Below are positions 41,731 to 44,879 of a DNA stretch of 64,000 bases, in pieces. The position numbers and the translations under genes were made by a program. Numbering within the stretch: position 1 is the stretch's first letter; every line of letters starts with the position of its first letter. Source of the DNA: Candidatus Thorarchaeota archaeon MP8T_1 (GTDB lineage Archaea; Asgardarchaeota; Thorarchaeia; Thorarchaeales; Thorarchaeaceae); contig PJER01000001.1 of the NCBI GenBank assembly GCA_002825465.1, positions 157,865-221,864 of the forward strand, given 5' to 3'. The notes under the pieces were generated by a model. That model did not search any database and was not told the DNA's origin. It saw only the letters and a list, made by a program, of their open reading frames with translations.

Positions 41731-42390
41731 ATGAGCTTGACTGAGAATACGACTCTCGCAGAAAAAGTGTATCAAATTGTTCAGGCAGCTCGTTCTGGTG
41801 ATATAGATCCACTTGAGATAAGACTCCTCGAGCCATACAAAGAACTTCAGGCACTAGTTGAAAAAATCGATAATAGAATTGATATTGATGAGATGTTGAA
41901 TGAAATTCTTAGTTCAAAGGTCAATCGTGTTCAGGAGCTTGCGCGAGTCCTTGCCTCTCCAGAAGTTTATGTTGCAAAATTGAAGAGAAAGTCCACAAAT
42001 CAACTTGCCAAGTTATTAGTTGCTAGACAACCTGTTGTTATAGGACATCTTGAACATGAAGCACTTGGAGGTTCTCTTGAACGCGTTGTGCAACTCATCG
42101 AGGCACTATCTAAAGAACCACCCGAAGAAAAGATTCCTGAGATGACACCCTTACCTAAGGGTTTTGCACTTGATACTGAAGATTCTGTTTTCCTAGAAGA
42201 TCTCGATAAATTCCTGAAAACAATACCAAATGATGGAAAGATTATCTTCGATAATTTAGTGGACAATCAGGAGTTTGATGTTTTCCTAAAGCACTTTCTT
42301 TACGTCATAATTCTGGTTTCAAAAGGAAGATTGCTCTACAATCCGGTGACACGAGAGATCTGGAGACCTCAGGTGCCTGAAGCAACCTGA
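41731..42390 (+). CDS. ScpA-like kleisin
   Basis: 219 residues. The N-terminal helical part (A-A-R-S-G-D-I-D-P-L-E-I-R) resembles the kleisin segment that binds the SMC neck, and the C-terminal part (F-L-K-H-F-L-Y-V-I-I-L-V-S-K-G-R-L-L) looks like the winged helix that binds the SMC head. The position directly after smc, where archaeal scpA is commonly found, strengthens the call; similarity by eye alone is modest. Start may be TTG 41737, which has a better spacing to GGAGG than ATG 41731. Confidence 0.6.
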   Translation: MSLTENTTLAEKVYQIVQAARSGDIDPLEIRLLEPYKELQALVEKIDNRIDIDEMLNEILSSKVNRVQELARVLASPEVYVAKLKRKSTNQLAKLLVARQPVVIGHLEHEALGGSLERVVQLIEALSKEPPEEKIPEMTPLPKGFALDTEDSVFLEDLDKFLKTIPNDGKIIFDNLVDNQEFDVFLKHFLYVIILVSKGRLLYNPVTREIWRPQVPEAT

Positions 42391-42394
42391 GGTC
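42365..42394. terminator. Bidirectional terminator between kleisin and MFS genes
   Basis: GACCTCAGGT and ACCTGAGGTC form a perfect 10-bp inverted repeat with a 10-nt loop, overlapping the last codons of the kleisin gene and lying 15 bp from the convergent MFS stop. Confidence 0.65.
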
Positions 42395-42409
42395 GAGTTG
42401 TGAAAACTA

Positions 42410-43759
42410 TTATGCAATAATCTCGACGGGTTCAATGTCTATTTCTTGAACCTCGTCTTTTTGACTATCAACCTTCTTTTCAGGAAGACGTGAGTGCAGT
42501 TTGAAGACAGCCACAGCTGCAAATCCAATCAATGCAACTACGACAAGTCCAATCCCAGCTCCAATCATTGGTGGAGCTGTAGAACCAGCAGTTTCGGCCC
42601 AAACACCACCAATACCCATTCCAACAACTTGGAATGCTGTAAAGGCAACATTGAGGAGAGCAAATACACGACCTCTCAATTCATCGCTAACTAACTCTTG
42701 CATCAGAACAGTGAGAGGAATGTTCAGCATAACATCGACTGCACCAATCATTGCCCATGATAACATGACTGTTACAAGGTCGAATGCAAGAACCATAGCA
42801 AAGACAGCTACACCAGCAAGAAGTCCTGCAATTGCAACAACGTATAGTGGCTTGTCTATGTTCTGTTTTCGGCTAAAGTAGATTGCAGTGACTGCTCCAG
42901 TGGCAGCCCCAGCACTTAGAACAAGTCCAATCTGTGCTGAACCTAATCCTAACTCGCCCTCAAAATAAGGCATGAGCAATGCATTGAGTATTCCTGAAGA
43001 TACTGCGAGCATCATTGCAAATACAAACAGGAATGAGAGGATTGCATTACCTATAACAAATCTGCCACCTTCAATGATTTGGGAACGAAGAGTTTCCTTA
43101 TCCAAATCAAATCGAGTAGGAATGAGATTCGTTTCAATTCCACGAAGTGCAACAGCTGAGAAGAGGAATGTTGATGCGGTTATAGCAAATGCCAGGAAAT
43201 AATCAGGGGCAAGGAGTGCAACAAGAATACCACCAATGGGAGGAACAACTAGTTGAACAACTTGGAAAGTCATCTGAGATAGAGAGTTTGCAGCTACAAG
43301 TTCATCCCCTTCAACAAGATTGGGAATCGATGCGCTCCTTGCCGGAAAGAACCACGCATTGGCTGAAGCGTAGATAAATGTGAGAATGTATACCCAATAT
43401 ATTGTGGGTAAGAAAGATGGAAAGTATATTGTCAGAGGAATCAGAAGGATAGTTACTGCGCGAATGAGATCAGAAGCAACCATGATTTTCTTTCGGTTCC
43501 ATTGATCAACATAGACTCCAACAAATCCGGCGAAAATAACTACTGGTGCAGTTTGAACCATAGCCAAAATAGCCATTGCCATTGCAGAGCCAGTCAATCC
43601 AAAGGCATAGAACATCAGTGCCAGTGAAGAGATACCTGTGCCTATATTAGACACTAGTTGACCAGACCAGAGACGCGCATAATCACGATGTGCAAGAACA
43701 GCTCTGAATCCTTTGGATTCGATCAAGTCTTCGGAAGGTTCAACAAGAACTTCAGTCAC
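42410..43759 (-). CDS. MFS transporter (MFS_3/enterobactin-exporter-like)
   Basis: 449 residues from GTG 43759, with a strong AGGAGG about 8 nt upstream that forms the end of the preceding micro-ORF. Twelve hydrophobic helices; D-Q-W-N-R-K-K between helices 2 and 3 is the MFS motif A (D-x-x-x-R-(K/R)) and R-D-Y-A-R-L-W at the N-terminus is typical of the MFS_3 subgroup that includes exporters of siderophores, drugs and small peptides. A polar tail follows helix 12. It is the last gene of a minus-strand run that begins with four micro-ORFs, so it may export their products or other compounds. Confidence 0.85.
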   Translation of the reverse strand: MTEVLVEPSEDLIESKGFRAVLAHRDYARLWSGQLVSNIGTGISSLALMFYAFGLTGSAMAMAILAMVQTAPVVIFAGFVGVYVDQWNRKKIMVASDLIRAVTILLIPLTIYFPSFLPTIYWVYILTFIYASANAWFFPARSASIPNLVEGDELVAANSLSQMTFQVVQLVVPPIGGILVALLAPDYFLAFAITASTFLFSAVALRGIETNLIPTRFDLDKETLRSQIIEGGRFVIGNAILSFLFVFAMMLAVSSGILNALLMPYFEGELGLGSAQIGLVLSAGAATGAVTAIYFSRKQNIDKPLYVVAIAGLLAGVAVFAMVLAFDLVTVMLSWAMIGAVDVMLNIPLTVLMQELVSDELRGRVFALLNVAFTAFQVVGMGIGGVWAETAGSTAPPMIGAGIGLVVVALIGFAAVAVFKLHSRLPEKKVDSQKDEVQEIDIEPVEIIA

Positions 43760-43764
43760 TTCAT

Positions 43765-43863
43765 TTACCTCCTGAAGAATACCATTGCAATAGCATCTGT
43801 GGAAATCTTGCGTTTTTCACTGTTTAATTTTCGACGAGCTGGATTTAACTTTGCCAAAGCCAT
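43765..43863 (-). CDS. Micropeptide A2 (32 aa), paralogue of A1
   Basis: ATG 43863 with GAGGTGAT 4 nt upstream; stop TAA overlaps the MFS gene's AGGAGG. Peptide begins MALAKLN and holds K-R-K-I-S-T-D-A-I-A, ending F-F-R-R; it is basic. It shares MAL, N, R and the K-R-x-(I/V)-S-T-D-A-(I/V)-A block with the peptide at 44120-44221. In the S-T-D-A-x-A block the two genes differ by third-base synonymous changes (TCC/TCA, ACA/ACT, GCT/GCA, GCA/GCT), with an I/V swap (ATT/GTT), which argues for real translation. Function unknown. Confidence 0.6.
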   Translation of the reverse strand: MALAKLNPARRKLNSEKRKISTDAIAMVFFRR

Positions 43864-43867
43864 AATA

Positions 43868-43978
43868 TCACCTCAATGAAGAAGAGTGAGAAAGTGTCAA
43901 GAGCTCAGAGGTCAATACTCTGATGTCCCTGTGTTCCATTGACAATCGGATCATCCGAGAATTATCATCTTGATTCAT
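43868..43978 (-). CDS. Micro-ORF C (36 aa)
   Basis: ATG 43978 to TGA 43868, with TAGGAG about 13 nt and GTGAT about 6 nt before the ATG. The stop TGA lies within the GAGGTGA that is the Shine-Dalgarno of micropeptide A2, 4 nt before its ATG. Peptide begins MNQDDNSRM and ends S-H-S-S-S-L-R. No paralogue seen; coding evidence is only the packing between neighbours, so this call is weaker. Confidence 0.35.
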   Translation of the reverse strand: MNQDDNSRMIRLSMEHRDIRVLTSELLTLSHSSSLR

Positions 43979-43994
43979 TTTTAATCACAAACTC

Positions 43995-44114
43995 CTATAC
44001 GTTGGTCACAGGATATGGTGTTTCTGAGACTGACTGACCATTTCTTTGGTCACTTGGTGACCATCGATTCGCTTCAGGTAGTAGCCAAGTAACTGAGCGT
44101 TCAGTGTAACTCAT
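43995..44114 (-). CDS. Micro-ORF B (39 aa)
   Basis: ATG 44114, 5 nt after the stop of micropeptide A1, whose GAGGTAA end serves as its Shine-Dalgarno (7 nt spacing). Peptide starts MSYTERSVTW and ends Y-P-V-T-N-V; polar, with three Pro and two Trp. The tandem GTGACCA inverted repeats (44047-44063) lie inside it. No homologue recognised; coding status rests on its tight coupling to A1. Confidence 0.4.
   Translation of the reverse strand: MSYTERSVTWLLPEANRWSPSDQRNGQSVSETPYPVTNV
44047..44063. repeat. GTGACCA inverted repeat
   Basis: TGGTCAC-TTG-GTGACCA, a perfect 7-bp inverted repeat; TGACCA-TTTCTT-TGGTCA overlaps it to the left (44036-44053). It may be an operator or a by-product of micro-ORF B's coding sequence. 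Confidence 0.35.
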
Positions 44115-44119
44115 CGGAA

Positions 44120-44221
44120 TTACCTCACAACGGTCAAGTAAGCATAAGCAACTGCATCAGTTGATACATTGCGTTTGTTCTTCATTGCGATGTTAGTTCG
44201 GTTGTTAGTTGTTAGAGCCAT
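44120..44221 (-). CDS. Micropeptide A1 (33 aa), paralogue of A2
   Basis: ATG 44221 to TAA 44120. Peptide begins MALTTNN and holds K-R-N-V-S-T-D-A-V-A, ending L-T-V-V-R. First of four head-to-tail micro-ORFs ahead of the MFS gene. On the minus strand a TATA-like TATATATA (44253-44260) lies about 30 nt upstream of the ATG, so the leader is very short. The shared motif with A2 is described there. I know no family with this motif. Confidence 0.6.
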   Translation of the reverse strand: MALTTNNRTNIAMKNKRNVSTDAVAYAYLTVVR

Positions 44222-44252
44222 AATAGTTCACAAGAATTACTGCTCAAATTTA

Positions 44253-44308
44253 GTATATATACCGAAGCCACTTGTTAGGGTCACAAGTAAGAGTCACATA
44301 TTGTGACT
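44253..44308. promoter_or_regulatory. Divergent promoter with AGTCACA operator
   Basis: TATATATA at 44253-44260 is nearly symmetric and can serve both the micro-ORF operon (minus) and the gene at 44361 (plus). Downstream in the plus direction lies AGTCACA-TAT-TGTGACT (44292-44308), a perfect 7-bp inverted repeat near the expected transcription start, and a half-site GGTCACA at 44278-44284. This placement suits a repressor. Confidence 0.5.
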
Positions 44309-44360
44309 ATGTTGAAGGCGCTTCTACCGGGCAGAAAGCCAGACTTTAAACAGGTATACG

Positions 44361-44879
44361 ATGATTGATAGATACCTCATGAACGAATATGCAGTCTTGG
44401 TAAAATTGCTAACAAGAACAGGAACGCCAATTGGGGCAAGCATAGAGGATATGCTAGATGCGTTAGGACTTCCTGAAGATACTGGACGATACTTATTGTT
44501 TCAGAAACTCGGAAGTCTTCACAAGCAAATCTCTCTTCTCGGTCTTTATGTGAAACATAATCCTGTTGAAGGCGTATTCTACTTAGACACTTCTGATGAA
44601 GTGACCCTTGCACATGATGGAGCTGCACTTCCAGACAGGTTGGCAGCAACACTTCTTATTGTCATTACCCTTGCATACCAAGAGGGGGGATGGGTCTCTG
44701 TAGATCGAGTGCGTGAGTTCAGGAAGAAGGCTCTAAAAGGTGTAATGGCAGACCTCCGAGAACTACAGGGTCAGGGATATGTTGAGATAGATTCAGATAA
44801 GAAACATGTACGTCTAGGAACCCGAGTACCCTTTGAGATTGATTATGAATCATTCTTCAAAGAACTTGCAGATAGTTAG
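44361..44879 (+). CDS. Tandem winged-helix protein, possibly ScpB/kite-like
   Basis: 172 residues. Two helix-turn-helix-like units are visible: residues 5-60 (Y-A-V-L-V-K-L-L-T-R-T-G ... S-I-E-D-M-L-D-A-L-G) and about 95-165 (L-A-A-T-L-L-I-V-I-T-L-A-Y-Q-E ... G-V-M-A-D-L-R-E-L-Q-G-Q-G-Y-V-E-I). This two-winged-helix layout and size match kite proteins (ScpB, MukE), and smc plus a kleisin lie 2 kb away. It could equally be a plain DNA-binding regulator of the divergent micro-ORF operon. Not firmly assigned. Confidence 0.5.
   Translation: MIDRYLMNEYAVLVKLLTRTGTPIGASIEDMLDALGLPEDTGRYLLFQKLGSLHKQISLLGLYVKHNPVEGVFYLDTSDEVTLAHDGAALPDRLAATLLIVITLAYQEGGWVSVDRVREFRKKALKGVMADLRELQGQGYVEIDSDKKHVRLGTRVPFEIDYESFFKELADS

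Follow-up and report, generated by a model that had tools for sequence, protein, structure and literature searches.

A multi-locus operon of cationic micropeptides behind a shared palindrome in Thorarchaeota

Why should four very short ORFs run head to tail on the minus strand into the gene of an MFS transporter? The locus lies in a 64,000-nt stretch of a Candidatus Thorarchaeota genome, hereafter the window, and the original prediction saw in it a micropeptide cassette with its exporter or a peptide-sensed transporter. Comparison with related genomes suggests a wider answer. On this evidence, the thorarchaeal micropeptide operon exists at several loci, and the window holds one of its MFS-linked copies; from the window alone, neither the sharing of the operator nor the multi-locus regulon nor the existence of dispersed copies can be seen.

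Layout and coding status of the micropeptide operon

The order, lengths and spacing of the predicted ORFs stand after their coordinates were re-derived. A1 (44120..44221, 33 codons), B (43995..44114, 39 codons, overlapped by an array of half-sites), C (43868..43978, 36 codons) and A2 (43765..43863, 32 codons), all on the minus strand, are separated by 5, 16 and 4 nt, and A2 ends 5 nt before the GTG start of a gene for a 449-aa transporter on the same strand (42410..43759), which we class as MFS type 1 (MFS_1/MFS_3, drug:H+ antiporter-like). A1, C and A2 each have a stop that overlaps the Shine-Dalgarno of the next gene (GAGGTAA, GAGGTGA and AGGAGGTAA, respectively), again as claimed, and the final codons of A2, AGG AGG TAA, are themselves the Shine-Dalgarno of the MFS gene. 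The proposed paralogy of A1, a P1-type micropeptide of 33 aa, and A2, a P2-type micropeptide of 32 aa, is borne out as well, as both carry MAL and K-R-x-(I/V)-S-T-D-A-(I/V)-A; of the 10 codons in this block, four have synonymous differences and three have N/K or V/I replacements. Upstream of A1 lie a putative operator, the palindrome GTCACANNNTGTGAC (GTCACATATTGTGAC; 44293..44307, no strand assigned), 86 nt 5' of the P1 ATG; a TATA box, TATATATA (44254..44261, minus), at -40 relative to that ATG; and, immediately 5' of the P1 start, the half-site-like CTTGTGAAC (44226..44234, minus), a position where both the locus I alignment and the dispersed copies keep TGTGAA. On the operator's other side runs a divergent 172-aa gene (44361..44879, plus), which has no match in Pfam or NCBIfam and no assigned function; it is present in 10 of 14 related loci, and in one of them (L008) it lies about 0.9 kb from P1, so it is not tightly tied to P1.

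These 14 related loci, 13 of them from Candidatus Thorarchaeota, were gathered by SMC search and have identities of up to 81%. Among the 11 relatives that reach the locus, tblastn (E <= 1) recovers A1 in all 11, A2 in 10, C in five and B, whole or as its C-terminal part, in 10; the ORFs keep their order 5' of the same MFS gene in the 11 loci reaching the place, ORFs at the position of C are present in further loci beyond the five matches, and L004 and L005 have an extra A copy. Selection was measured in five sister pairs (three for B and two for the MFS gene; one of the A1 pairs is identical, leaving four informative). For A1, pN/pS is 0.34 in frame versus 0.90 and 1.69 in the other frames, and for A2 it is 0.26 versus 1.03 and 1.15; C has 0.34 in its own frame, the other frames of A1, C and A2 together spanning 0.90-1.69. 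The values are 0.47 versus 0.86 and 1.25 for B (three pairs) and 0.10 for the MFS gene as a control (two pairs). The dN/dS-type comparison and the tblastn search (the latter for A1 and A2), both proposed in the original prediction, come out in its favor, with purifying selection on A1, C and A2 in their own frames (pN/pS 0.26-0.34). Judged from sequence comparison, these three are conserved coding genes. The null reading offered at the time, that the ORFs arose by chance in a leader and would lack conservation or carry frameshifts and stop codons in relatives, retains a negligible probability; it is refuted for A1, C and A2 by conservation, by the spread of the family and by frame-specific selection, and B is the ORF that behaves as it expects, in one clade.

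In that clade of four relatives (L006, L007, L008, and L010), the frame of B is closed a few codons upstream and left without a usable start, while it is intact in L005. The TGGTCA-rich DNA of B stays conserved where the ORF is broken, which argues that B acts, in part at least, as an element of DNA or RNA; it is probably not a retained gene but a cis-element. We considered B as a fourth peptide and doubt it, given the broken ORF of those four loci; nor does it belong to the A1/A2 micropeptide family. Within B of the window are half-sites TGGTCAC / GTGACCA (44003..44063, no strand assigned), with TGGTCAC at 44003-44009, 44047-44053, and 44057-44063; the whole window contains 12 copies of TGGTCAC versus 7.3 expected. 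Among 100 micropeptide clusters from the order (see below), an array of the form TGGTCA-N3-8-TGGTCA occurs in 20 of the 28 that are MFS-linked versus none of the 36 that end in the peptide P3 (MFS type 1, 13/17; MFS type 4, 7/11; other, 2/31; cut by a contig end, 0/5), a count to which the window does not contribute, its half-sites being arranged differently.

C is a different case. Its counterparts by position in the four loci with a broken B match the model of the A1/A2 family at 26.7-42.5 bits, the counterpart of L006 being itself a row of that model, and the window's own C does not match it; C is probably a diverged P1-like paralogue and a member of the family. The original prediction of four micro-ORFs in one series therefore holds for their order and positions but not for their equivalence, as A1 and A2 form one family to which C probably belongs and B stands outside it.

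A cationic micropeptide family and its clusters

By the same comparisons, A1 and A2 are the P1 and P2 of a family of cationic micropeptides of about 30 residues, apparently undescribed before. A 13-row alignment of A1 finds 7-13 matches in each of five thorarchaeal genomes out of five (E <= 1) and matches 44 of the 47 genomes of the order at E <= 0.01. When a 27-row alignment is searched against 227 genomes of the Asgard phylum at E <= 0.001, 46 of the 47 order genomes match, and none of the 180 others does. Annotation usually passes over genes as short as these, of about 30 codons, which is how a family found in all order genomes but one can go unseen. MAG contigs often end in or beside P1/P2 (L118, L120, L127, and L128, from G043 and G030; C150 and C181 of G042), as expected if near-identical copies break assembly, and copy numbers taken from MAGs are probably underestimates.

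The fetched loci contain 192 family peptides with distinct DNA at E < 0.01, or 184 distinct sequences, every one of them with a positive net charge (mean +5.4). P1 has about 32-36 aa and reads like MALATNNRNSSVLKNK..QSTDALxYAYMTVVR, and P2 has about 27-33 aa and reads like MALAK..ISTKAITxAYFRR; both termini are conserved, and the middle is variable. The C-terminal endings among the 192 are RR in 104, VR in 35, and YR in 12, and the RR codons often serve also as a Shine-Dalgarno. AlphaFold models, of low confidence (mean pLDDT 65.6 for P1 and 64.7 for P2), have a C-terminal helix in both peptides and a second helix in P1. The C-terminal 13 residues are not amphipathic, as their hydrophobic moment has a mean z of -0.42 versus shuffles, and we do not favor membrane-disrupting amphipathic peptides, since this moment is not above that of shuffled sequences. 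HbYX is a C-terminal motif for docking to the proteasome, and we dropped it as an explanation of the P2 peptides that end in YR, so few of the 192 having that ending.

Searches of databases place the family nowhere in particular. Of 27 members, a single one has a weak match to one Pfam family (E 0.14), none matches PDB at E <= 10, and Rfam has no match at E <= 1 for window positions 42300-44500. No modifying enzyme of the RiPP type stands out as recurring among the next same-strand genes, the neighbors that were listed, and in the part of the literature surveyed nothing resembles the peptide family or the regulon. A virus-borne element was considered and rejected: five stretches in viral contigs match the P1 pattern, none of which encodes a P1 relative, and the single match to the promoter pattern in viral contigs (L180) has no such cassette adjoining and was dropped as chance.

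What follows the peptides was read from 100 distinct clusters, found with the A4 model (its rows come from six thorarchaeal genomes, including the window) in loci fetched from part of the 47 order genomes; some loci are 3 kb long or reach the end of a contig, so that the following gene may be missing. With MFS classes assigned by short motifs, MFS type 1 follows 17 clusters and MFS type 4 follows 11; P3 follows 36, neither is detected in 31, and five run into a contig end. One cluster with MFS type 4 (L127) carries P3 too, and the motif overlooked a P3-like peptide at the end of one classed as other (L036). P3, of 30-40 aa, has some form of E-V-L-x-L-E-A-T as its C-terminus, an ending conserved partly by construction, as P3 was assigned by its C-terminal motif. 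It is mostly acidic (mean charge -1.9, with five of 36 positive), and one P3 used as a query finds five database relatives of 40 aa each, without a Pfam domain. In three genomes (L026, L033, and L042), a P1-P2-P3 copy lies downstream of a desulfoferrodoxin gene (Pfam). In G011 (L105:2411-3883), an S41-family peptidase gene lies about 21 nt after one micropeptide with its own operator.

An adjacent P1-P2 pair, with gaps of 4-9 nt, is present in 68 of the 100 clusters and a single family peptide in 20; in MFS-linked loci of the window's kind, the copies may be 143-396 nt apart. P1 and P2 have no evident leader, their stops often lie inside the next Shine-Dalgarno, and translational coupling probably links P1, P2, and the following cistron wherever these adjoin. 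One could take from this that P1-P2 are regulatory leader ORFs, on which ribosome passage or stalling would control MFS translation, as for mef-type pumps; stops in the next Shine-Dalgarno mean that MFS translation is probably coupled to P2, and the pump of the window is Mef-like. We consider this improbable, as selection acts on the amino acids and more than a third of the clusters end in P3, not a pump. Locus II speaks against it too. Its last peptide ends in YRR in all five copies (L025, L029, L032, L041, and L128), written AGG CGC or AGG CGG, and there is no same-strand gene within 700 nt 3' of it in L025 and L029, the next one lies 335-383 nt away in L032 and L128, and the contig ends in L041. 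As YRR is kept without an ORF directly following, the ending is kept as protein. After the last stop, all five copies have a short inverted repeat (e.g. GATAGA...TCTATC) and pyrimidine-rich DNA, possibly a terminator.

The MFS gene of the window matches Pfam MFS_1 and MFS_3 and, in NCBIfam, the models for the H+ antiporter, EntS, Mef, Tap, and Tet(V), all below their curated cut-offs; against TIGR00900 (drug:H+ antiporter), it scores 217 bits, below the cut-off of 319.6. MFS types 1 and 4 have no significant similarity to each other (BLASTP E 0.25). In one locus (L002:6011-6370), an internal deletion has reduced the MFS gene to a 123-codon ORF of its N- and C-terminal parts, and the micropeptides are intact; this is possibly a natural uncoupling of peptides and pump, the alternative being an assembly fault. 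The original prediction of a micropeptide cassette with its exporter is thus upheld in one part, a paralogous cassette that reads as translated beside an MFS gene, an arrangement shared by 28 of the 100 clusters, and weakened in the other, given the clusters that end in P3 or show neither. The latter two groups argue that the peptides are not simply the cargo or the leader of one pump.

The operon is also found as dispersed copies. In G020 (five of six fetched loci) and G021 (four of four), copies of 398-418 bp with 88-98% identity stand between unrelated flanks; in the other genomes compared, the common stretch is shorter or weaker. The unit of about 410 bp spans the palindrome TAGTCACAAATTGTGACTA, a TATA box, P1, P2, and P3, and ends just past the P3 stop. 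Indels in the ORFs of these copies are multiples of three (6 nt in P1 and 3 nt in P3), and a 1-nt indel sits in the P1-P2 spacer. The five copies in one genome and four in the other, with sharp ends and unrelated flanks, are what one would expect if the unit were a mobile or selfish element, a non-autonomous repeat that the peptides help to spread. We rate this as very unlikely, since gene duplication with conversion would be enough, several loci keep their upstream neighbor across genomes, viral contigs contain no P1 relative, and no terminal inverted repeats or target duplications are seen by eye in the alignment of the copies, which includes about 100 nt of flank.

The shared operator and its proposed regulon

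Promoters were compared in the 95 clusters with at least 100 nt upstream. Counted from the first ATG, the palindrome GTCACA-N3-TGTGAC is at -84 to -87 in 53 of them in its strict form and in 67 with one free base allowed per half; the remaining 28 have no palindrome there even so. In its looser form, it is present in all 16 MFS type 1 clusters (10 of them strict), all nine of MFS type 4, 27/35 of the P3 type, 11/30 of the others, and 4/5 of those cut by a contig end. A TATA-like match lies at -36 to -43 in 75 of the 95. In the window, the operator is the sole match at up to one mismatch, and 14 of 100 shuffles of the window also have at least one match. Across 16 hand-chosen genomes, there are 57 palindromes versus 4 sites of the reversed pattern, and the palindrome is found in 73 of the 227 genomes, with 137 sites versus 9 reversed controls in the order and 64 versus 7 in the other Asgards.

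The palindrome is not confined to the peptides. Among operator loci read in detail, which were hand-picked, the order sites without a thorarchaeal peptide include eight genomes in which it lies 76-91 nt before a bactofilin-like gene; in 8/8 of the order-genome bactofilin-like loci read, an HTH_45-related gene ends 9-36 nt before the palindrome. Pfam confirms Bactofilin for L148 and L153 and HTH_45 for L148. Divergent from this HTH_45-operator-bactofilin block is a gene of about 245 aa (L148:791-1531 and L153:833-1570), of which the L148 copy has no Pfam match and which we take, by resemblance, to be longin/roadblock-like. The palindrome also precedes MFS type 4 and membrane-protein-like genes, and at least five of 24 extra order-genome sites lie inside larger ORFs (L151, L155, L160, L168, and L171) and may be incidental. 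Relatives of the HTH_45 protein (E <= 1e-15) are present in 68 of the 227 genomes, 42 of them in the order. In counts that ignore kinship, 55 of the 227 genomes have both the HTH_45 relative and the palindrome, 13 the former only, 18 the latter only, and 141 neither; for the 180 genomes outside the order, the corresponding numbers, likewise ignoring kinship, are 17, 9, 15, and 139.

Outside the order, palindromes were read without a peptide model, and 22 of 42 have an ATG-started ORF of 24-42 codons at a distance of 70-118 nt on either strand, versus 18% at random. Among 24 order sites not chosen by peptide, the enrichment of micro-ORFs is weak, with 8 of 24 versus 26% at random positions. Two further peptide families emerge here. 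One, MNFKKQKIQKQVKKEIEQIRIRVCLLSGC with its partner, reaches E <= 0.01 in 10 of 227 genomes: G102-G110 account for nine, each with 2-14 matches, and the tenth genome matches weakly; 12 of 20 loci picked by its model have the palindrome (one free base per half) 103-116 nt upstream. The other, with members like MNKKLAIKLKLRKELKTERNDGLKTYILLKGSL, reaches E <= 0.01 in 14 of 227 genomes, of which just six have strong matches (E < 1e-12). Nine of its 10 strongest matches start 73-74 nt from a palindrome, in a comparison of positions by eye in which six of the 10 are rows of the model itself, found through the operator, and the independent matches number three of four. Both families resemble P1/P2 in charge and length, not in sequence. 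Bactofilin-like genes, too, stand behind the palindrome in other Asgards (L181, L184, L187, L191, and L194), and of six such proteins, four pass the cut-off of Pfam Bactofilin, one falls below it and one has no match. L181 (where one is cut by the contig end) and L184 have two bactofilin-like genes in a row.

Taken across the phylum, these sites raise the idea of an ancient Asgard regulon, comprising GTCACA-N3-TGTGAC, an HTH_45-type regulator, bactofilin, and MFS pumps, whose main output would be sets of cationic micropeptides replaced wholesale at least twice between clades, and which may be a general stress or signaling system; we hold the chances for and against it to be even. If true, such an Asgard micropeptide system is not known to have been described before. 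A replacement of the peptide sequences with promoter and layout left in place would imply that sequence matters less than charge, size, and dose. An operator that stands before three peptide families unrelated to each other prompts one to ask what is being preserved, if not the sequence.

For what the peptides do, the explanation that we favor, tentatively and with somewhat less than even confidence, is a stress-induced regulon, in which one factor would induce cationic micropeptides acting inside the cell together with an MFS pump that is not their exporter. A single transcription factor, most likely the HTH_45 winged-helix protein beside the bactofilin operator, would activate all palindrome-linked genes in response to envelope or toxic-compound stress, the inducing stress being guessed from the presence of pumps and bactofilin in the gene set. 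Archaeal activators commonly bind upstream of the TATA box, and we favor an activator because the palindrome has just this placement, with constant spacing from the TATA box. P1 and P2, made in similar amounts, would act intracellularly by binding an acidic partner, which may be nucleic acid, the ribosome, or a protein such as P3. As not every copy has a pump, and as bactofilin and membrane-protein-like genes stand behind this operator too, we read pump and peptides as parallel outputs, the pump being co-induced.

The main rival to this explanation is peptide export, which we regard as less likely. P1 and P2, with C or P3, would be secreted intact as a leaderless multi-peptide signal or weapon; the MFS protein would be the exporter, acting in trans for cassettes without one, and P3 may be an immunity or chaperone peptide. 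The peptides are indeed short, cationic, and multi-copy, two MFS types without significant mutual similarity follow their cassettes (17 and 11 of 100), and the S41 peptidase gene after one copy in G011 would fit as well. Their lineage-specific turnover behind the same palindrome also belongs on this side, and it is a counterpoint to our favored explanation, as a change of peptide sequence between clades behind one promoter fits exported, fast-evolving peptides too. However, most clusters have no detected adjoining MFS gene, the C-terminal segment is not amphipathic, the peptides are under purifying selection within the order, and the operator also precedes bactofilin-like genes, which are not secretion genes. 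We therefore keep the co-induced, intracellular reading as the preferred one.

Comparison with known systems

Judged against databases and the part of the literature surveyed, no known family or system fits the micropeptide operon. With the peptide family defined, the operator given precisely, a regulator proposed, and the genes of the set named, small-protein biology becomes testable in the archaea closest to eukaryotes. Ribo-seq of Methanosarcina mazei (PMC11456600) is reported to show that many unannotated small ORFs are translated in an archaeon. Among transporters, the EntS, Mef, and Tap exporters are relatives of MFS type 1, yet it falls below every curated NCBIfam cut-off.

Three kinds of systems share features with the operon. 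The phenol-soluble modulins of staphylococci are leaderless peptides made in tandem under one regulator, amphipathic, and exported by the ABC transporter Pmt. P1 and P2 are likewise leaderless and in tandem under what would be one regulator; however, the hydrophobic moment of their C-terminal segment does not exceed that of shuffles, and the linked pump is an MFS protein, not an ABC transporter. The leaderless multi-peptide bacteriocins aureocin A70 and enterocin DD14 also consist of short cationic leaderless peptides in tandem, sometimes with a transporter. Their transport is by ABC or PH-domain proteins, whereas here it would involve MFS, and the present peptides differ from them in a non-amphipathic C-terminal segment, several loci per genome, and one palindromic operator. 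Finally, leader-peptide attenuation as reported for mef(E)/mel (PMC4335068) resembles the window in placing a short ORF before an MFS drug pump; here, by contrast, no pump is detected beside most copies of the peptides, whose amino-acid sequences are conserved.
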